Source: Terriglobia bacterium
GTDB lineage: Bacteria; Acidobacteriota; Terriglobia; UBA7540
Direction of reading: 5' to 3'
Assembly (NCBI GenBank): GCA_020073545.1
Contig: JAIQEZ010000042.1
Location: 1 to 35,850, forward strand
Length of the DNA: 35,850 bases
Position 1 is the stretch's first letter; each line of letters starts with the position of its first letter. The notes under the pieces are model-generated. The model did no database searches and had not been told where the DNA came from. It was given only the letters and a program-made list of their open reading frames with translations. The position numbers and the translations under genes were made by a program. Below, piece by piece: positions 20,536-30,074 of the stretch.

Positions 20536-20946
20536 ATGGATGCGCAGGTTGAGCTTTTTCAGGCCCTCGGCGATGCCACGCGTTTGCGGTTGGTGAACCT
20601 GCTGACGCAGACCGGCGAGATTTGTGTTTGCGAACTGGTAGACGCGCTCGAGCTTCCACAGTACAACGTCTCGCGGCACCTGCAAATTCTCCTCAAGGCG
20701 GGTTGGCTGGAAGACCGCAAGGTGGGGAAGTGGGTTTACTACCGCGTGGCGCGGGATCTGAAACCCTATCACCGTTCCTTGCTGCGGGCTGTCGATCAAC
20801 TGCGCGAAGAGCGCGAGGACTTTCGCCGGGACGAGCAGCGAGCCAGCCGCCGCCTGAAGTTGCGCCGCGGCGGCGTGTGCTGCGTAGGGCTCGTTTCCAT
20901 CAGCGAGGGTGGGCACACCGCCCAGCGGCCGGGTACCGCAGGGTGA
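20536..20946 (+). CDS. arsR: ArsR/SmtB-family arsenic-responsive repressor
   Basis: A 136-residue winged-helix repressor expected to release its operator when it binds As(III). The metalloid site C30-V-C32 lies in the ICVCEL motif at the start of the recognition region, matching the CVC site of ArsR. The DNA-recognition helix is LPQYNVSRHLQILLKAGWL and the wing is DRKVGKWVYYRV. A C-terminal extension contains a vicinal Cys pair in RRGGVCCVGL that may provide a further ligand. It heads the arsenic island directly behind a near-consensus promoter with a possible overlapping operator; arsM follows 71 bases downstream. Confidence 0.92.
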   Translation: MDAQVELFQALGDATRLRLVNLLTQTGEICVCELVDALELPQYNVSRHLQILLKAGWLEDRKVGKWVYYRVARDLKPYHRSLLRAVDQLREEREDFRRDEQRASRRLKLRRGGVCCVGLVSISEGGHTAQRPGTAG

Positions 20947-21017: not shown

Positions 21018-21794
21018 ATGCCACAAGAACCACAGGGAACGGATTCCGAGACGATCAAGAAAGCTGTAGAGAGACATTACGCGGCCATCGCGCGGGGGGA
21101 AATCAAGAGTTGTTGCGACACGGCGAAGGCGGCGCCGGAGAACCTTTACAACATCGCCACCCAAACGCCCGGTTACAACGCCCAAGAACGGGCGGCACTG
21201 CCCGCGGGCGCGGACCTGGGACTGGGCTGCGGCGACCCGACGGCGGACGCGGACTTGGCGCCCGGCCAGACGGTGCTCGACCTCGGAAGCGGGGCCGGCG
21301 TGGACTGCTTCCTGGCGGCGCGTCGCGTCGGTCCAATGGGCCAGGTCATCGGTGTGGACATGACCGACGCCATGCTCGAAAAGGCGCGTGCCAATGCCGA
21401 GCGCGGCGGTTTTACGAACGTCGAGTTCCGCAAGGGCGAAATCGAAAACCTCCCCGTGGAATCGGGCACGGTGGACCGCATCATCTCGAACTGCGTCATC
21501 AATCTGGCGCCGAACAAGGCTCGGGTCTTTGCGGAAGCCTTTCGCGTGCTGAAGCCGGGAGGCCAGATCTCGGTTTCCGACATCGTTTCCTTCGGCGACG
21601 TGCCCGCCTCGATCCGCACGGACCTCGAACAATGGGCGGGCTGCGTGGCGGGAGCTCTCGACCGGGAGGAATATCTCCGGGTGATACGCCGCGCGGGTTT
21701 CAGTTCGGTGAGCGTCCTCAAGGATGTGGCTTACGACTACCTGCGCGGACGGGACTACGGCTTCGCCAGCGTTACGGTACGCGCGGTGAAATGA
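21018..21794 (+). CDS. arsM: arsenite S-adenosylmethionine methyltransferase
   Basis: A 258-residue enzyme that methylates As(III) stepwise to mono-, di- and trimethyl forms, which can leave the cell as gas or be exported. The SAM motif VLDLGSGAGVDC begins at residue 86. The three arsenic-binding cysteines of the family are all present: Cys71 in GLGCGDP, Cys159 in SNCVINL, and Cys209 in WAGCVAG; a vicinal pair Cys32-Cys33 lies near the N-terminus. The ATG at 21018 follows AAAGGA (21003-21008). The frame is open far upstream but overlaps arsR there. Same transcription unit as arsR. Confidence 0.93.
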   Translation: MPQEPQGTDSETIKKAVERHYAAIARGEIKSCCDTAKAAPENLYNIATQTPGYNAQERAALPAGADLGLGCGDPTADADLAPGQTVLDLGSGAGVDCFLAARRVGPMGQVIGVDMTDAMLEKARANAERGGFTNVEFRKGEIENLPVESGTVDRIISNCVINLAPNKARVFAEAFRVLKPGGQISVSDIVSFGDVPASIRTDLEQWAGCVAGALDREEYLRVIRRAGFSSVSVLKDVAYDYLRGRDYGFASVTVRAVK

Positions 21795-21956: not shown

Positions 21957-22406
21957 ATGCGAGGAGACATTTTGAAGATAACCGTCGACAAGTTCACCTT
22001 CCTGGTTCCGGCGGGTTTGTTTTATAGCGAAGCGGGCGTTTGGGTGAAACTCGAAGGCAACCGTGCACGACTGGGCTTGACTGACTTTGCCCAGCAGTCC
22101 AGTGGGGATGCCGCCTTCGCCAATGTGAAGCCGGTCGGTACAAGCCTCCAATTGGGCGACGAGTTCGCAGACATCGAGACGGTGAAGGTCAATGTCAGCT
22201 TCCCTTCTCCGCTGAGAGGGACGATCGCAGAGGTGAATTCCTCCCTGGCAGAAGCGGCCGAGGTTCTTAACCAAGACCCTTACGGCACGGGCTGGGTGGC
22301 AGTGGTGGAACTCAGCGATTGGGAGAGCGACCGTGTCCACCTGCTCGATGCGCAGGCGTACCTTGCGCTCGTCAAAAACCAGGCCGAAGCGGAGATGAAG
22401 AAATGA
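21957..22406 (+). CDS. GcvH-like lipoyl-domain carrier protein
   Basis: A 149-residue protein with the hammerhead lipoyl fold of glycine-cleavage H protein: GVWVKLEGNRARLGLTDFAQ near the N-terminus, then IETVKVNVSFPSPLRG, in which Lys77 occupies the lipoylated lysine position, and NQDPYGTGWVAVVEL near the end, as in GcvH. No glycine-cleavage genes are nearby. H-like proteins outside glycine cleavage serve as carriers in other redox systems. Lipoate is a dithiol with high affinity for As(III), so a carrier or buffer role in arsenic metabolism is possible (inference). ATG 21957 has GGAG 6 bases before it; TTG 21972 with GAGGAG is an alternative. It overlaps the next gene by ATGA. Confidence 0.75.
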   Translation: MRGDILKITVDKFTFLVPAGLFYSEAGVWVKLEGNRARLGLTDFAQQSSGDAAFANVKPVGTSLQLGDEFADIETVKVNVSFPSPLRGTIAEVNSSLAEAAEVLNQDPYGTGWVAVVELSDWESDRVHLLDAQAYLALVKNQAEAEMKK

Positions 22407-22813
22407 GAGAGAAGGTTCTGATTATTCCGTGTAGCGGGATCGGGAAGAGTCTTGGTTCGGTGGCAAGAGAAGCTTCCTATATGGTGACGGAGGAGTTATG
22501 TCGCGATAGGACGCGATTAATGCCCCTTGCTTTATTAGTGTTGGGCGACAAGGAGACGCGGACCGAGCTTTCCAGCGCGGAGGTCATTACGATTGACGGC
22601 TGCGTGAAGGCATGTGCCGCCAAAGTAGTTGAAGGGACGGGAGGCACGGTAGCGCATGGCCTGCAGGTTCTGGATGTGTGCCGCCGGCATCCCAAGTTGA
22701 AGCCTTCCGGCATCTCCGAACTCAACGAAAGCGGTCACGAACTGGCCCACGCCTTAGCCGAGGAGGTAAAGGAACTGGTGGAAGACATGACGGGAGGGTT
22801 GAGCAATGCCTGA
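22403..22813 (+). CDS. DGC-motif putative zinc-binding protein, first copy
   Basis: A 136-residue protein of the DGC domain family (named for a conserved Asp-Gly-Cys). Cysteines likely to bind metal are Cys10 in IIPCSG, Cys67 in IDGC (65-67), Cys71 in the following VKAC, and Cys93 in LDVCRRHP. No signal peptide or membrane segment. The family has no firmly established biochemistry; zinc binding is the usual prediction. It overlaps the GcvH-like gene (ATGA, 22403-22406) and the second DGC gene (8 bases), so the three are translationally coupled. Clustered cysteines next to arsenic genes suggest metalloid or thiol handling, which is inference. Confidence 0.78.
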   Translation: MREKVLIIPCSGIGKSLGSVAREASYMVTEELCRDRTRLMPLALLVLGDKETRTELSSAEVITIDGCVKACAAKVVEGTGGTVAHGLQVLDVCRRHPKLKPSGISELNESGHELAHALAEEVKELVEDMTGGLSNA

Positions 22814-23528
22814 GCTTCCCACGAAAAAGGTTGGCCTAATCGCTTGCTCGGGGGAAGAGATTCCGGAGGGCACCGTGACCCGGCTGGCAGTACGAAAGGT
22901 GCTGGAATCGTTGCGCCCGCTGCATACAGTAACGATCTGCCTGCCGTTATTCCTCGCCGGCGGCGAAGGTGACCGTGCCTTCGCCCGTTTCCACCCGACC
23001 ATCGCCATTGACGGTTGCGAAAAACGATGCGCCGCTCGCGGCACGGAAATGTTCAGCGGCAAGCCAGCGGTCAGTATCGTTGTTAGCGATTCAGTGTCTG
23101 CAGAGTCTGCTGGACTGGGAACCGCACGCCGATTAAGCGAGAAAGGCATGCATGTGGTAGGCGATGTTGCCGATCAAATTGCACGGCACGTGGACCACCT
23201 GCTGGACCTCAAGTGGGATCGCCGAAGCGGCGGGCCGGTCGACGGTTCCACGCCTCAAGAAGAATCCAAACCTCGACAGGCCGCCTGCTCATGTGGCTCT
23301 GGAATTCCCTCACAGGTTCTGCGCGTCGCGGGGCGGGAGGTCACGCTCATTGCGCTCCCCCTCATTTTTGCCCAGTTTCGCGAGGCGGGAAAGCTTCCAA
23401 GCGACTCTACGAAGGCCCAATTGATCGAGGCGGTCAGAATCTACAATCTGATCCCGGATGATGAAGAGTCCGCTTACGCGCGGGCGGTTACGGAGGAATA
23501 CGCCGCATTCTGCCGTGGGGGAAATTGA
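22806..23528 (+). CDS. DGC-motif putative zinc-binding protein, second copy with C-terminal extension
   Basis: A 240-residue paralogue-like protein. The N-terminal half repeats the DGC pattern: Cys14 in IACSGEEIPEGTVTRLAVR, Cys45 in ICLPLFLAGGE, D69-G70-C71, and Cys75. A linker rich in Pro, Gln and charged residues leads to a CSCGSG pair near residue 155 and an ~80-residue helical C-terminal domain of unknown function (LPLIFAQFREAGKLP... TEEYAAFCR). The two DGC proteins share layout but are not close copies, so they may form a heteromer. It overlaps its neighbours on both sides, including a TGATG junction with the OsmC-like gene. Confidence 0.75.
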   Translation: MPELPTKKVGLIACSGEEIPEGTVTRLAVRKVLESLRPLHTVTICLPLFLAGGEGDRAFARFHPTIAIDGCEKRCAARGTEMFSGKPAVSIVVSDSVSAESAGLGTARRLSEKGMHVVGDVADQIARHVDHLLDLKWDRRSGGPVDGSTPQEESKPRQAACSCGSGIPSQVLRVAGREVTLIALPLIFAQFREAGKLPSDSTKAQLIEAVRIYNLIPDDEESAYARAVTEEYAAFCRGGN

Positions 23529-23980
23529 TGTCGCGAACTGCCACGTATCACACGAGGGTTAGCTGGAAAGGGGAACACTGGGGGCATATTCAGATGGGCA
23601 ATGGGCCGGAGATGGATTTTTCGGCCCCGCCCGACGTGCAGGGGCACTCCGGTGTGTTAACCCCTGAAGATGCCTTCGTCGCCGCCGTCAACACCTGCGT
23701 CATGATGATGTTCATCTGGGCTGTCGAGCGGTTCAAGCTGGACCTGGTCTCGTACGATTGCAGCGCTGAGGGCACGAAACTCATGGAGCTGGATCGCACG
23801 GAAATCTTTACCTTGGTTGTGCTTCGTCCCAGAATTGTCATTCGCGCGAAGGACGAGATGAGACCCGCTGTCGAGAAGCGCACGCGGCGGGCGCTGGAAT
23901 CGGCGCAGAAGTACAGCCTGGTTGCCAATTCCGTCAAATCAGAGATCCGGGTCGATCCGGTAGTCGAGATAGTCTCATGA
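23528..23980 (+). CDS. OsmC/Ohr-like family protein
   Basis: A 150-residue OsmC-fold protein. Family traits: N-terminal strands YHTRVSWKGEHWGHI, the GVLTPEDAFVAAVNTC helix with the first active-site Cys, and the C-terminal ALESAQKYSLVANSVK helix. OsmC and Ohr enzymes use two cysteines to reduce organic hydroperoxides. Here the second position, usually KCxxSNS-like, is Ser (KYSLVANS), so classic two-Cys peroxidase chemistry is not expected unless Cys in YDCSAEG substitutes. A ligand-binding or one-Cys role is possible. Start ATG at 23528 overlaps the upstream stop by one base, indicating translational coupling to the DGC pair. Confidence 0.82.
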   Translation: MSRTATYHTRVSWKGEHWGHIQMGNGPEMDFSAPPDVQGHSGVLTPEDAFVAAVNTCVMMMFIWAVERFKLDLVSYDCSAEGTKLMELDRTEIFTLVVLRPRIVIRAKDEMRPAVEKRTRRALESAQKYSLVANSVKSEIRVDPVVEIVS

Positions 23981-24021
23981 AGACAGTGGCTATGCTCGCA
24001 TGCCTCAACATGGAGGTCTGA

Positions 24022-24267
24022 ATGTTATCGATCAAAGTGCTTGGCCCTGGTTGCACGAACTGCGTCAAGGTGGCGCAACTTGCGCAACAGGCAGTGGCTA
24101 CTCTGGGGGTGGAAGCCCACATTGAGAAAGTAACTGAAATTCCTGAGATCAGAAAATATCGGATTCTCGCAACCCCCGGACTGGTGATTAATGAGAACGT
24201 GGTCTGCGCCGGGCGCATCCCCACGGCAGCCGAAGTCACCACATGGGTCGCGAACGCGTTAGTGTGA
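24022..24267 (+). CDS. mini-thioredoxin / small redox-active disulfide protein
   Basis: An 81-residue thioredoxin-fold protein with the active site GPGCTNC (Cys11, Cys14) right after the first strand and a cis-Pro in LATPGLVIN. Proteins of this size and motif are typically encoded near metal, sulfur or arsenic transporters. It could reduce the OsmC-like or DGC proteins, the lipoyl carrier, or the thioredoxin-coupled ArsC encoded downstream (inference). It follows the OsmC-like gene by 41 bases on the same strand; a third Cys occurs in NVVCAGR. Confidence 0.85.
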   Translation: MLSIKVLGPGCTNCVKVAQLAQQAVATLGVEAHIEKVTEIPEIRKYRILATPGLVINENVVCAGRIPTAAEVTTWVANALV

Positions 24268-24528: not shown

Positions 24529-25611
24529 ATGGGACAGACGACAATGGAAGTGACCAGGAAGAAGCTGAACTTTTTTGAACAGTATTTGAGCGCCTGGGTG
24601 GCGGCGTGCATGATCGCCGGAGTGCTACTCGGGAAGCTGGTCTCCGGTCTGACCGATACCCTGCGACGGCTGGAATTCGGGCAGGGGAGCCATATCAATG
24701 CTCCTATCGCCGTGCTCATCTGGCTGATGATCATCCCCATGATGATGAAAGTGGACTTCACCTCCATCCGAAATGTTGGGAGACGACCGCGCGGGCTCCT
24801 GGTGACCCTCGTCGTGAATTGGCTCATCAAGCCCTTTTCGATGGCGCTCCTCGCATGGTTATTCTTCCGCCATGTCTTCGCGCACTGGATCAGCGTGGGC
24901 GAAGCCGACCAGTACATCGCCGGGACGATCATCCTGGCCGCGGCACCCTGCACGGCCATGGTTTTCGTTTGGAGTTATCTGACCGATGGCGACCCCGCCT
25001 ATACACTGGTGCAGGTGTCGGTGAACGACCTCATTATGCTTGTCCTCTTTGCGCCTATTGTCCGGTTTCTGGTAAGCGGAGCTTCTTCGCTTACCGTCCC
25101 GTTCAGGGTGCTCCTCTATTCGGTGGGTGCTTTCATCGTCATTCCTCTCGTCATTGGCGCTTCGCTGCGGGCTTGGTTCATCCACCGGCACGGGAAAGAG
25201 TGGTTCGAAAAGAGCCTGCTTCCGAAATTCGCACCGATAACAACCCTTGCGCTGCTGGCCACGCTCGTCTTCATCTTCGCCTTCCAGTCAGAGAACATCA
25301 CGGGCAAGTACATCCACGTGCTGCTGATCGCCGTGCCTATTCTGGTGCAGGTGTACCTGAATGCCACGCTGGCATATGGACTGATGCATTTCCTCAAGGT
25401 CCCGTATTCCGTGGCGGCTCCTGGAGCTCTCATTGGTGCGAGCAATTTCTTCGAACTGGCCGTGGCCACGGCGATTGCGCTTTTTGGCCCAGGGTCGGGA
25501 GCGGCGCTGGCGACAGTGGTGGGCGTGCTGGTGGAAGTGCCCGTCATGCTCTCCATTTGCGCGGCCTGCAACCGAACTCGGGACTGGTTTCCGGTAACCA
25601 GTACTAGCTGA
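24529..25611 (+). CDS. acr3: arsenite efflux transporter, ACR3 (BART superfamily)
   Basis: A 360-residue inner-membrane protein with about ten hydrophobic helices that exports As(III) using the proton gradient. The essential transport Cys is Cys141 in AAAPCTAMVFVW, and the conserved Glu of the penultimate helix is in GVLVEVPVML. FFELAVATAIALFG is also characteristic. Length is typical. ATG 24529 has CGGAG 9 bases upstream; ATG 24544 is a second candidate. The 261 bases before it hold no clear gene. It is the efflux arm of the cluster with arsR, arsM and arsC. Confidence 0.93.
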   Translation: MGQTTMEVTRKKLNFFEQYLSAWVAACMIAGVLLGKLVSGLTDTLRRLEFGQGSHINAPIAVLIWLMIIPMMMKVDFTSIRNVGRRPRGLLVTLVVNWLIKPFSMALLAWLFFRHVFAHWISVGEADQYIAGTIILAAAPCTAMVFVWSYLTDGDPAYTLVQVSVNDLIMLVLFAPIVRFLVSGASSLTVPFRVLLYSVGAFIVIPLVIGASLRAWFIHRHGKEWFEKSLLPKFAPITTLALLATLVFIFAFQSENITGKYIHVLLIAVPILVQVYLNATLAYGLMHFLKVPYSVAAPGALIGASNFFELAVATAIALFGPGSGAALATVVGVLVEVPVMLSICAACNRTRDWFPVTSTS

Positions 25612-25692: not shown

Positions 25693-25887
25693 GTGCGAGC
25701 TCTTGTTTTGTGTACTGGTAACTCGGCTTGGAGCCAAATGGCGGAGGGGCTTCTCCGGTCGCTCTCGAAGGGGGCCGTCGAAGTTGACAGAGCGGGCACC
25801 AGCCCATCCCGCGTCAATCCTCTGGCGATTGAAGCGATGAAGGAAGTCGGGATCGACATCTCTGGGCATCGGTCCAAGGGAGGATGA
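25693..25887 (+). pseudogene. truncated arsenate reductase copy (ArsC, LMW-PTP type)
   Basis: A GTG-initiated frame of 64 codons matching only the N-terminal half of ArsC up to SGHRSK, then Gly-Gly-stop. The phosphate-binding loop reads CTGNSAWS: the catalytic Arg of C-x5-R is Trp. The downstream redox cysteines are missing altogether. Together these make reductase activity impossible. It ends within the ribosome binding site and start region of the intact arsC that follows, and the two share the MAEG...[10 protein letters not shown] segments, so the pair looks like a tandem duplication in which the first copy decayed. Its translation could still couple to the second gene. Confidence 0.7.
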
Positions 25888-25889
25888 CC

Positions 25890-26309
25890 ATGATCAAACC
25901 CAAGGTGCTATTCCTCTGTACAGCCAACTCCTGCCGGAGCCAAATGGCGGAGGGTTTCCTCCGCCACCACGCGGGGGATCGCTTTGAGGTGTACAGCGCG
26001 GGCGCCAAGCCTGGCAAACTGAACCCCTCTGCCGTGGCAGTCATGAAGGAGTTGGGGATTGATATCTCCGGCCACCGCTCCAAAGACGTCGCCGAATTCC
26101 TCGGCCAGTCCTTCCATTATGTAGTCAGGGTTTGCGACAAAGTCCGGGACTTGTGCCCGGTTTTCCCGGGAGCCCTGTGGTACTTGGACTGGAGTCTGGA
26201 GGACCCGGCAGCCGCGGAAGGCTCGCCACCTCAGCGGATGAACGTCTTTCGCCGCGTCCGGGACGAAATCGAAGCGCGGGTTCTGGAGTTCGTGGCCAAG
26301 AATTCATGA
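25890..26309 (+). CDS. arsC: arsenate reductase, thioredoxin-coupled (LMW-PTP fold)
   Basis: A 139-residue enzyme that reduces As(V) to As(III) for export by Acr3 or methylation by ArsM. The P-loop C10-TANSC-R16-S is intact, and the redox pair Cys82 and Cys89 in VCDKVRDLCPVFPG sits at the positions known from thioredoxin-dependent ArsC. ATG 25890 is preferred because AAGGGAGG (25877-25884) lies at proper distance; ATG 25884 would be too close to it. The small CxxC protein at 24022-24267 is a candidate electron donor. Last gene of the arsenic island on this strand. Confidence 0.92.
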   Translation: MIKPKVLFLCTANSCRSQMAEGFLRHHAGDRFEVYSAGAKPGKLNPSAVAVMKELGIDISGHRSKDVAEFLGQSFHYVVRVCDKVRDLCPVFPGALWYLDWSLEDPAAAEGSPPQRMNVFRRVRDEIEARVLEFVAKNS

Positions 26310-28170: not shown

Positions 28171-28699
28171 GTTAGTCACTCCTTTTCTCTTTTTCCGAAC
28201 TTGCCTCGGGAAGCGTCGCGCAATGCACGCTACCCACTTTCCTAAGGATAGACACGGCACGCCTGGGGCCAACCGTGCCGCAGTCCAACACCTTATGTGT
28301 GAGTCAGTTACAGCTTCTGAAAGGGCGCCTCGCAGCCACCAGCTCCGCAGTTCTTACCACCTAAAGGTAAAAAATACGGTCGGACTCTTCGTCGGAGCCA
28401 GGGGCAAAAACCCTAAGTCGGGAGTTCCATATTGGGTCCCGAGAGGCTGACGATACACCCAGGGTTTCCATTTTTGAAGCTCCAGGCGCAGCGATTAAAG
28501 CATCCTCGGCGGCGGCGTGTCTGTTCAAGATTGCTCACTTGGGCGGGAAATCACTTCGGAACCCGGATCTGCCGCTCGTGCAGCCGATACCTCAGATACC
28601 GCTCCATCTCTCTCTCGCGTCCTTTCGGACGGATCGGTTTGACCCCCAAGCTTCGGCTGCCCCATTGGCAACTGCAGCGCCGCAATACGCCGCAACCTG
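28171..28699. other. non-coding region upstream of the coiled-coil gene
   Basis: No gene supported. An inverted repeat CGGCACG (28255-28261) / CGTGCCG (28274-28280) with a 12-base loop lies about 85 bases upstream of the coiled-coil gene and could be an operator or structure in its leader. The stretch near 28550-28700 may still contain decayed transposase DNA. Confidence 0.35.
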
Positions 28700-28937
28700 C
28701 TCCCAAAGAGCCGCCGCGTGAGGGGGCTCTCGGCCAGCGGAAGCTGTGTGTTCGTCCCTCGCCGTGAGTCGGTCCCGCCGCGACGGGCTGGGTGATGAGA
28801 ACACCGAGACCCAAACGTTCGTCCAACTCGCGAACCAGAATCAGACCACCATCCGAGGTGACCCGCGATCCCTGGAAATCGATCCTCAGAGAAGCGTTGA
28901 AGGAGAGCTGAAAGGGCTGGTTTTGCTTCTCACGCAT
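28700..28937 (-). pseudogene. IS1380-family transposase remnant (N-terminal part, frameshifted)
   Basis: Read on the minus strand from an ATG at 28937, the first ~45 residues match the IS1380 transposase start (FQLSFNASLRIDFQGSRVTS, then DGGLILVRELDERLGL). The frame then shifts by about 28790, where another frame continues the family pattern with TDSRRGTNTQLPLAE. Beyond about 28700 no resemblance is seen, and the remaining ~400 residues of a full enzyme are absent. It is a decayed insertion sequence fragment abutting the left end of the IS110-family element. Confidence 0.65.
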
Positions 28938-29006
28938 TATAAGGGGGCGCCCCTTTGGAGTAAGGTTTGAGCGCTGTCTCACTTCGCCCAGAAAGGAGCG
29001 CCCTCG

Positions 29007-30074
29007 ATGAGTAGTATCAAATACATCGGCATGGATGTTCACACGGCAACGATTTCCGTCGCCGTGCTCGATGCCGCCGGGAAGCTGATCATGGAATCGG
29101 TCATCGAGACCAAGGCCAGCACGATTCTCCAGTTGATCCAGGGATTGCGCGGGGACCTGCACGTCACGTTCGAAGAAGGCACCTGGGCGGCCTGGCTGTA
29201 TGACCTGCTCAAGCTCTACGTCACGAAGATCGTGGTGTGCGATCCGCGCCGCAACGCCCTGCTCAAAGAAGGCAATAAGAGCGACCGGATCGATGCGCGG
29301 AAGCTGGCCGAGCTGTTGCGCGCGAATCTTCTCCGCTCGGTCTATCACGGAGAGAAGGGCCTGCGCACGGTGAAAGAACTGGTCCGCAGCTATCTGACCT
29401 TCGGCAAAGATCTCACGCGGGTCATGAACCGGGTGAAGGCGATCTTTCGCAGCTGGGGCATTCCCTGTGGCGGCAAGAGTGTCTACAACCCGCGCCATCG
29501 TGACGAGTGGCTGAGCAAGATCGCGGAAGTCGGCGTGCGCCGCCGGGCGGAGCTTTACTACGACCAGCTCGATGCGCTGGTTTCCTTGCGCCAGCAAGCG
29601 CGGCGAAAGCTCCTGGCCGAGAGCCAGAAGCACAGTGCCTGGAAATTGCTCCGCTCGATTCCGGCCCTGGGTCCGATTCGCGTGGCCCTGCTGATGGGCA
29701 TTGTCCAGACGCCCCACCGGTTCCGCAGCAAGCGGCCGCTCTGGAAATACAGCGGGTTTGAGGTGGTGACGTACACCAGCGCCGATCACCGGCATGTCGA
29801 GGGACAGCTGGAACGATCCAAGAAACCGGTATCGGTTCGCGGGCTCGACCCCAATCACAATCACCATCTCAAGGATTTGTTCAAGGGTGCGGCGATCCAG
29901 GCCGCCACCCGGGAGGGTCCTTTCCGGGAGTTCTACGAGGCTCTGGTGGCGAAAGGGATGAGGCCAGAAATGGCCCGTCTCACCCTGGCGCGAAAGATTG
30001 CCGCGATCACGTTGACCGTTTGGAGGAAAGGCGTCGCGTTTAACGCCAAATATCTGAAGCCACAAACAGCTTGA
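29007..30074 (+). CDS. IS110/IS1111-family DEDD transposase
   Basis: A 355-residue recombinase. The N-terminal RuvC-like DEDD domain shows the first Asp in GMDVHTATI (Asp10), the Glu in TFEEGTWA, and the Asp pair in SDRIDARKLAELL. The C-terminal Transposase_20-type domain includes LRSIPALGPIRVALLMGIV, a helix-hairpin-helix-like segment, and KYSGFEVVTY. Length and all domains are intact, so the element may be active. AAAGGAG (28992-28998) precedes the ATG. Members cut and join DNA under guidance of an RNA made from the element's own non-coding end. Confidence 0.9.
   Translation: MSSIKYIGMDVHTATISVAVLDAAGKLIMESVIETKASTILQLIQGLRGDLHVTFEEGTWAAWLYDLLKLYVTKIVVCDPRRNALLKEGNKSDRIDARKLAELLRANLLRSVYHGEKGLRTVKELVRSYLTFGKDLTRVMNRVKAIFRSWGIPCGGKSVYNPRHRDEWLSKIAEVGVRRRAELYYDQLDALVSLRQQARRKLLAESQKHSAWKLLRSIPALGPIRVALLMGIVQTPHRFRSKRPLWKYSGFEVVTYTSADHRHVEGQLERSKKPVSVRGLDPNHNHHLKDLFKGAAIQAATREGPFREFYEALVAKGMRPEMARLTLARKIAAITLTVWRKGVAFNAKYLKPQTA

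Follow-up and report, generated by a model that had tools for sequence, protein, structure and literature searches.

Between the arsM and acr3 genes of a Terriglobia bacterium, five open reading frames encode a GcvH-like lipoyl carrier, two DGC-family proteins (DGC1 and DGC2), an OsmC-like protein, and an ArsE-type mini-thioredoxin. The set looks like a genuine, undescribed sulfur-based arsenic-defence module. We give an even chance to the reading that it is a conserved accessory module under ArsR control, which contributes to resistance to arsenic, and possibly to other thiophilic metalloids, is organized around a dedicated lipoyl carrier, and operates as a mobile-dithiol relay. The window, i.e., the whole stretch of DNA analysed here, comprises 35,850 nucleotides (assembly GCA_020073545.1, contig JAIQEZ010000042.1, positions 1–35,850, forward strand).

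Results

Layout of the arsenic locus

The five reading frames lie exactly where an earlier sequence-only reading had placed them (Table 1), and the junctions that it described are confirmed in the sequence. The gcvH-like gene and DGC1 share an ATGA (22403–22406), DGC1 and DGC2 overlap by 8 bases (22806–22813), DGC2 and osmC overlap by one base within TGATG (23528), and 41 bases separate the osmC stop codon from the thioredoxin ATG. With arsR, arsM, acr3, and arsC all present in the window, the locus is an ars operon in the sense of ArsR plus an efflux pump and/or an arsenate reductase in one cluster. The window's ArsR carries a CVC metal-site motif, and its acr3 is the sole acr3 found in the genome. 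Neither ArsF nor ArsG was detected among the nine window proteins scanned.

Table 1. Genes of the arsenic locus in the window and the evidence for their assignment.
Feature	Position	Strand	Evidence
arsR-type repressor, EICVCEL (CxC) alpha-3 motif	20536..20946	+	PF01022 1.3e-12; NF033788 87.5 bits, cut-off 55
arsM, arsenite methyltransferase	21018..21794	+	PRK11873 318 bits, cut-off 263
gcvH-like lipoyl carrier; Lys77 codon 22185–22187	21957..22406	+	PF01597 (GCV_H) 4.1e-30; TIGR00527 101.9 bits, below equivalog cut-off 115.85
DGC1	22403..22813	+	PF08859 2.9e-13; conserved Cys motifs
DGC2, DGC domain plus C-terminal domain	22806..23528	+	PF08859 1.5e-14; conservation; predicted structure
OsmC-like, relocated cysteine pair	23528..23980	+	PF02566 2.3e-9; alignments; PDB relatives 2onf, 2d7v
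ArsE/MTH895-type mini-thioredoxin (CTNC)	24022..24267	+	TIGR00412 88.3 bits, cut-off 62
acr3 arsenite efflux permease	24529..25611	+	TIGR00832 369.5 bits, cut-off 282.8
arsC, thioredoxin-type arsenate reductase family (LMW-PTP fold)	25884..26309	+	TIGR02691 137.5 bits, below cut-off 174.3; PF01451 3.8e-23

The block recurs across phyla

The same block occurs at no fewer than 94 distinct loci from at least five phyla (Acidobacteriota, Chloroflexota, Verrucomicrobiota, Kiritimatiellota, and Omnitrophota), mostly in MAGs and with loci of related genomes not independent of each other. On the same strand and at most 2.5 kb from DGC2, GcvH is encoded at 87, DGC1 at 89, and OsmC at 88 of these 94 loci. 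The overlaps recur as well, with a junction of −4 between GcvH and DGC1 (73/85 loci), of −8 between DGC1 and DGC2 (58/85), and of −4 or −1 between DGC2 and OsmC (63/84). Because the same genes with the same overlaps are found in distant genomes, the block is more than a chance arrangement. A tblastn search of the PLSDB plasmids with DGC2 gave no match. Gene fusions also occur: DGC and GcvH domains are joined in two genomes (L073 and L097), and an ArsM–ArsE fusion is found in L097.

Linkage to arsenic genes

Gene neighbourhoods provide strong sequence-level evidence that the block is associated with arsenic genes. The sequence-only reading had proposed this tie and would have regarded it as refuted if the block stood mostly without ars genes in other genomes. 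The survey did not refute it: of the 54 loci flanked by 5 kb or more on either side, 50 have an ArsR gene within 7 kb, and 41 have another ars gene (acr3, arsC, arsM, arsP, arsA, or arsD). The recurrent neighbours are acr3, arsC, arsM, arsA, and arsD. The 25 Acidobacteriota genomes with a cassette contain 26 full-length acr3 genes, of which 20 are located within 10 kb of the block, with a probability of ~3e-40 for at least 19 acr3 genes near the block under uniform placement. Moreover, acr3 exceeds the cut-off in 23/25 cassette genomes versus 92/190 others (p = 2e-5). The ArsR nearest to the cassette carries the CxC motif in 69 of 77 cases; such sites are also able to sense Cd, Pb, or Bi.

The linkage varies by phylum, as another ars gene is found within 7 kb at 18/19 full-flank loci in Acidobacteriota and at 18/30 in Chloroflexota. 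Stand-alone ArsR-Trx-GcvH-DGC-DGC-OsmC operons without a pump exist. At 12 of the 30 Chloroflexota loci, nearly all of which still have ArsR, no other ars gene lies within this distance, and direct hand-over to Acr3 or ArsM therefore cannot explain everything.

A lipoyl carrier distinct from canonical GcvH

Like the GcvH of glycine cleavage, the cassette protein comprises a GCV_H domain with the lipoyl lysine and has H-protein relatives in the PDB. Lys77 and the glutamate at −3 are 100% conserved in an alignment of 87 cassette copies. In contrast to glycine cleavage GcvH, the score of the cassette copy remains below the equivalog cut-off, DKFxF takes the place of the N-terminal HEW, and genes for P- or T-protein are not among the recurrent cassette neighbours. 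In the tree, 51 cassette copies are split from 16 canonical GcvH by one branch (SH-aLRT 95), forming a clade of their own rather than grouping with the canonical GcvH of the same genomes. A canonical GcvH is encoded elsewhere in the same genome, and lipA is present in the window's own genome.

An E3-like (dihydrolipoamide dehydrogenase) gene is positioned directly upstream of gcvH at nine loci and at no others; the dihydrolipoyl dehydrogenase of locus L148 exceeds its equivalog cut-off (515.8 vs 408.8). As E3 adjoins gcvH at only nine loci, a housekeeping E3 must be assumed elsewhere. Two further E3-like matches (L079 and L177) are CoA-disulfide reductase–rhodanese fusions and were dropped from this count.

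Conserved cysteines in the DGC and OsmC-like proteins

The thiol or dithiol character ascribed to the products is borne out, as the lipoyl lysine and the key cysteines are invariant. DGC1 and DGC2 match PF08859 with 50.2 and 54.3 bits, respectively (gathering threshold 27), and share invariant C-S-G and DGCxxxC motifs. These correspond to PCSGIGK (C10) and DGC-x3-C (C67, C71) in DGC1, while the DGC domain of DGC2 contains C14, C45, C71, and C75. Zinc binding is assigned to the family from annotation only. DGC2 further has a C-terminal domain of ~80 residues that opens with CxC (C161, C163); taken alone, this domain of the window copy gave no Pfam match and no convincing fold match. The predicted structure of DGC2 consists of an alpha/beta Rossmann-like core with a beta-hairpin and a three-helix tail. 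Its best second-look fold matches (Z ~8) are alpha/beta domains, namely the transketolase C-terminal domain, PDH E1-beta, and lumazine synthase. We take these model-based matches to reflect a Rossmann-like arrangement only, with no functional meaning.

In the OsmC-like protein, the expected cysteine pattern is retained only in part. The peroxidatic C57 is 100% conserved, while the second, resolving cysteine of OsmC/Ohr is an invariant serine (Ser130) in all 87 cassette copies, and a new invariant cysteine, C78, appears. Owing to this loss and gain, the protein is not a standard OsmC/Ohr peroxidase.

Discussion

The relay reading is supported at the sequence level by the packing kept across phyla, the invariant lipoyl lysine and cysteine clusters, the linkage to arsR, acr3, arsC, and arsM, the DGC–lipoyl and ArsM–ArsE fusions, and the adjacent dihydrolipoamide dehydrogenase at nine loci; from these features, we infer a lipoyl-dithiol chemistry. 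The GcvH-like protein would be lipoylated by the cell's own machinery, as the presence of lipA suggests, and either dihydrolipoamide dehydrogenase or the ArsE-type thioredoxin would return its dihydrolipoyl arm to the reduced state. The arm may dock on the OsmC variant and on DGC1 and DGC2, in which three or four cysteines would lie where the strands of the alpha/beta domain end. As a mobile dithiol, the arm would thereby accept or reduce arsenic bound to thiols, or cysteines blocked by arsenic, and could pass As(III) and/or electrons on to the enzymes of methylation, reduction, and efflux that the neighbouring genes encode. Somewhat more tentatively, the module may represent a lipoyl-carrier machine of a new class, at work neither in central carbon metabolism nor in sulfur oxidation, with a protein-bound dihydrolipoyl arm dedicated to metalloid chemistry, DGC proteins as partner enzymes, and a repurposed OsmC fold whose cysteine pair has moved.

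Arsenite is a classic poison of lipoyl groups; if the module is such a machine, the very group poisoned by arsenite would have been turned into a tool that handles it. The lipoyl cofactor would have a new use, in a dedicated carrier that is regulated by arsenic and has partners of its own, and the uncharacterised DGC family would gain a function. Further, the arsenic resistance of Acidobacteriota and Anaerolineae would include an undescribed module; both groups are common inhabitants of soil, sediment, and groundwater, settings in which the mobility of arsenic is important.

Alternatively, OsmC, together with AhpD-like neighbours, might clear organic peroxides that arise under arsenic stress, drawing electrons from the GcvH-like protein as a donor of its own. 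Ohr receives its electrons mainly from lipoylated proteins, which reduce OsmC and AhpC too (PMC4486171). As in that lipoyl-dependent system (Cussiol 2010; PMC4486171), genes for an OsmC-fold and a lipoyl protein stand together, at nine loci with dihydrolipoamide dehydrogenase, and AhpD-type CMD proteins are encoded near 18 loci. We nevertheless consider a peroxidase set unlikely: the resolving cysteine is an invariant serine, and the same change, C124S, left C. glutamicum Ohr inactive on cumene hydroperoxide (PMC4486171); the regulator is ArsR-type instead of OhrR; and the two invariant DGC proteins are left unexplained. The cassette also differs from that system in the new invariant cysteine elsewhere in OsmC and in a lipoyl donor of GcvH type instead of SucB. 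Similarly doubtful is a repair function, in which As(III) would be stripped from the lipoyl domains of PDH, OGDH, and GCS or from zinc sites, with the GcvH-like protein as sacrificial dithiol and the DGC proteins as arsenic acceptors. Arsenite binds lipoate (PMC10138600), the recurrent neighbours include no glycine cleavage or 2-oxoacid partner enzyme for the carrier, and the pump-less operons would fit such a role; however, no sequence feature marks other lipoyl proteins as clients, and genomics cannot separate repair from relay.

We see little probability that the block handles reactive sulfur (persulfide/sulfane) and merely shares the ars neighbourhood. In the sHdr pathway, a GcvH-like lipoyl carrier, LbpA, works in sulfur oxidation outside glycine cleavage, and the sulfane sensors sHdrR and SoxR are ArsR-type; the reductase–rhodanese fusions at L079 and L177 point the same way. 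In contrast, the recurrent neighbours of the cassette are arsenic genes, no hdr-type gene is among the neighbour clusters that were named, and the nearest ArsR mostly has the arsenite-type CxC motif. Very improbable, in our view, is a modification or biosynthesis module whose lipoyl carrier would present an arsenical or a sulfur group to a radical SAM/SPASM enzyme that makes or degrades an organoarsenical. At 23/94 loci, in Acidobacteriota and Chloroflexota alike, a TIGR04317-like radical SAM/SPASM protein is encoded no more than 7 kb away, but the genome of the window itself lacks it, as do most of the tested close relatives that keep the block, and we rejected it as a core part.

A search of open-access papers retrieved no description of a lipoyl-DGC-OsmC module. 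The claim of the sequence-only reading that no system with this set has been described thus stands for that part but not for the mini-thioredoxin (redox-active disulfide protein 2), which was described in ars operons in 2010 (PMC2963123). The authors who describe arsenite induction of a GcvH in P. pseudoalcaligenes, gcvH3, relate this gene to folate metabolism (PMC10138600); it is not in a DGC block and was set aside as a precedent. With ArsEFG, the cassette shares the ArsE-family thioredoxin and, near some loci, a CcdA-like (ArsG-like) membrane protein, whereas its core is not part of ArsEFG. Neither a glycine-cleavage nor an OsmC protein is mentioned in PMC2963123, as judged from a term search. 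Both that operon and the cassette include the TIGR00412 mini-thioredoxin, and CcdA-like proteins and thioredoxins accompany some cassettes too, but the cassette adds the lipoyl-DGC1-DGC2-OsmC core, which is packed far more tightly.

Organization and distribution of the cassette

The gcvH-like, DGC1, DGC2, and osmC-like genes are inherited together and translationally coupled, a thiol cassette centered on a dedicated lipoyl-type carrier and linked to arsenic genes. In the window (contig 31; genome size 5.28 Mb), all four and an 81-aa thioredoxin are encoded on the forward strand between arsM and acr3, and the gene junctions of the sequence-only reading agree exactly with the window sequence. 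An ArsR-family gene upstream carries the motif EICVCEL, whose CxC is of the kind that makes up the arsenite site of E. coli ArsR, and a thioredoxin-type arsC lies downstream. The latter overlaps a truncated arsC-like N-terminal copy, apparently a tandem duplicate in decay. Farther downstream, past the ars cluster, an ORF includes the beginning of a DDE transposase (PF13701, under the cut-off), suggesting a mobile-element remnant.

Of 396 sampled Acidobacteriota genomes, 28 contain DGC domains, most commonly as an adjacent DGC1-DGC2 pair. Neighborhoods from 40 loci, followed by 80 found by scanning 84,980 species genomes (the best-scoring 80 of 242, a non-random sample), yielded 94 distinct loci holding DGC2. 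On the same strand and within 2.5 kb of DGC2, GcvH is present in 87/94, DGC1 in 89/94, and OsmC in 88/94 loci, those without a partner being mostly cut by contig ends. GcvH and DGC1 overlap by 4 bases in 73/85 loci, DGC1 and DGC2 by 8 bases in 58/85, and DGC2 and OsmC by 4 or 1 in 63/84. The loci come from Acidobacteriota (33), Chloroflexota (56, mainly Anaerolineae), Verrucomicrobiota, Kiritimatiellota, Omnitrophota, and one unclassified host. The block is thinly spread: of 301 Chloroflexota genomes sampled, 3 carry it.

The claim that no such system had been described holds for the lipoyl-DGC-DGC-OsmC block, for which we found no description in the open-access library searched, but not for the thioredoxin, as thioredoxin and CcdA parts were already recognized in ars operons in 2010 (PMC2963123).

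Linkage to arsenic genes

The arsenic association, which the sequence-only reading had left to a neighborhood survey, recurs across genomes. Of the loci, 54 have 5 kb or more of sequence on both sides. Within 7 kb, 50 of these 54 carry ArsR, 28 acr3, 21 an arsC-family gene, and 8 arsM, and 41 have at least one of acr3, arsC, arsM, arsP, arsA, or arsD. The latter set is represented in 18/19 Acidobacteriota loci, which were collected irrespective of ars genes, and in 18/30 from Chloroflexota, where arsC-family matches were called with a custom profile and may in part be other low-molecular-weight phosphatases; ArsR accompanies 29/30 of these Chloroflexota loci. The nearest ArsR carries a CxC motif in 69/77 cases (CVC in 59). 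Of the 26 full-length acr3 genes in 25 cassette genomes, 20 sit no farther than 10 kb from the block, and acr3 exceeds the cut-off in 23/25 versus 92/190 other genomes (Fisher p = 2e-5, uncorrected for relatedness).

Stand-alone ArsR-Trx-GcvH-DGC1-DGC2-OsmC operons, some including dihydrolipoamide dehydrogenase, have no other ars gene within 7 kb (loci L155, L159, L164, L174, L142); thus, the regulated unit is the block itself. Moreover, single-DGC loci (L061-L067) share the recurrent form ArsR, ArsP-type permease, ArsE thioredoxin, and DGC, with the same thioredoxin as in the cassette. DGC proteins are therefore tied more widely to metalloid operons.

The carrier and its partners

All 87 cassette GcvH-like copies compared have the lipoyl lysine and a glutamate three positions before it (100% conservation). 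In a tree, the cassette form falls on one side of a branch (SH-aLRT 95) versus canonical GcvH of the same genomes. The window copy scores under the GcvH equivalog cut-off; its genome encodes a canonical GcvH elsewhere, together with lipA. GcvH-like carriers are also known in sulfur oxidation (LbpA). In two genomes, a DGC domain is fused to a lipoyl domain: a 284-aa protein in locus L073 (PF08859, residues 4-89; PF01597, residues 162-279) and a similar one in L097. Further, a dihydrolipoyl dehydrogenase (E3) or E3-like gene lies directly 5′ of gcvH in nine loci from several phyla (L119, L129, L142, L147, L148, L168, L174, L175, L178), with L148 scoring 515.8 bits against TIGR01350 (cut-off 408.8).

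DGC1 has three invariant cysteines (C10, C67, C71), and DGC2 has four as well as a C-terminal CxC domain. The predicted DGC2 model (mean pLDDT 88.4) displays a four-stranded α/β fold with only generic matches, and its cysteines are positioned at or just past strand ends. Cassette OsmC retains the first cysteine, C57, while the resolving cysteine is replaced by an invariant serine and a new invariant cysteine, C78, appears. In C. glutamicum Ohr the corresponding Cys-to-Ser change abolished organic peroxide activity (PMC4486171), which makes a standard peroxidase role unlikely for the cassette protein. Reduction of OsmC/Ohr by lipoyl proteins is established (PMC4486171).

Possible mechanism

The carrier arm would be lipoylated and reduced by Lpd or thioredoxin; its partners in an exchange of dithiol, As(III), or electrons would be the DGC proteins and the OsmC variant. 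Judged from sequence, this arrangement would fit relay, repair, and electron supply alike. We place about half of our confidence in the block acting as a relay or electron shuttle, the remainder being left to the rivals already listed or to something we have not thought of.

Neighbors and additional families

Genes for ArsA, ArsD, ArsP, AhpD-like proteins, and a CcdA/DsbD membrane domain are also found repeatedly near the cassette. In L097, ArsM is fused to an ArsE/MTH895-type thioredoxin.

Coordinates of features in the window and in surveyed genomes
Feature	Location	Position	Strand	Remark
arsM	window	21018-21794	+	5′ flank of five-gene block
acr3	window	24529-25611	+	3′ flank of five-gene block
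truncated arsC-like copy	window	25693-25887	+	64 aa; 4-base overlap with full arsC at 25884
transposase-like ORF	window	~28551-30065	-	PF13701
ArsM-thioredoxin fusion	L097	13205-14299	-	364 aa
thioredoxin domain, NosL-like stretch, alkylmercury lyase (MerB) domain	L177	6335-7810	+	492 aa; Kiritimatiellae
radical SAM/SPASM protein	L071	10197-11567	-	also L072, L074, L075, L076, L081, L084, L085, Chloroflexota loci
third GCV_H family	own genome (G000), contig C85	22615-22974		

A MerB-domain protein adjoins the cassette in L177. For 23/94 cassettes, the surrounding 7 kb include a radical SAM/SPASM protein that resembles the tungsten-oxidoreductase maturase TIGR04317, scoring 303 bits against a cut-off of 380. 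Cassette genomes also carry divergent GCV_H-domain proteins distinct from both canonical GcvH and the cassette copy; this third family (~55-77 bits, ORFs of 224-307 aa) often occurs in tandem pairs, as on contigs C17 of genome G401, C387 of G411, and C20 of G203.
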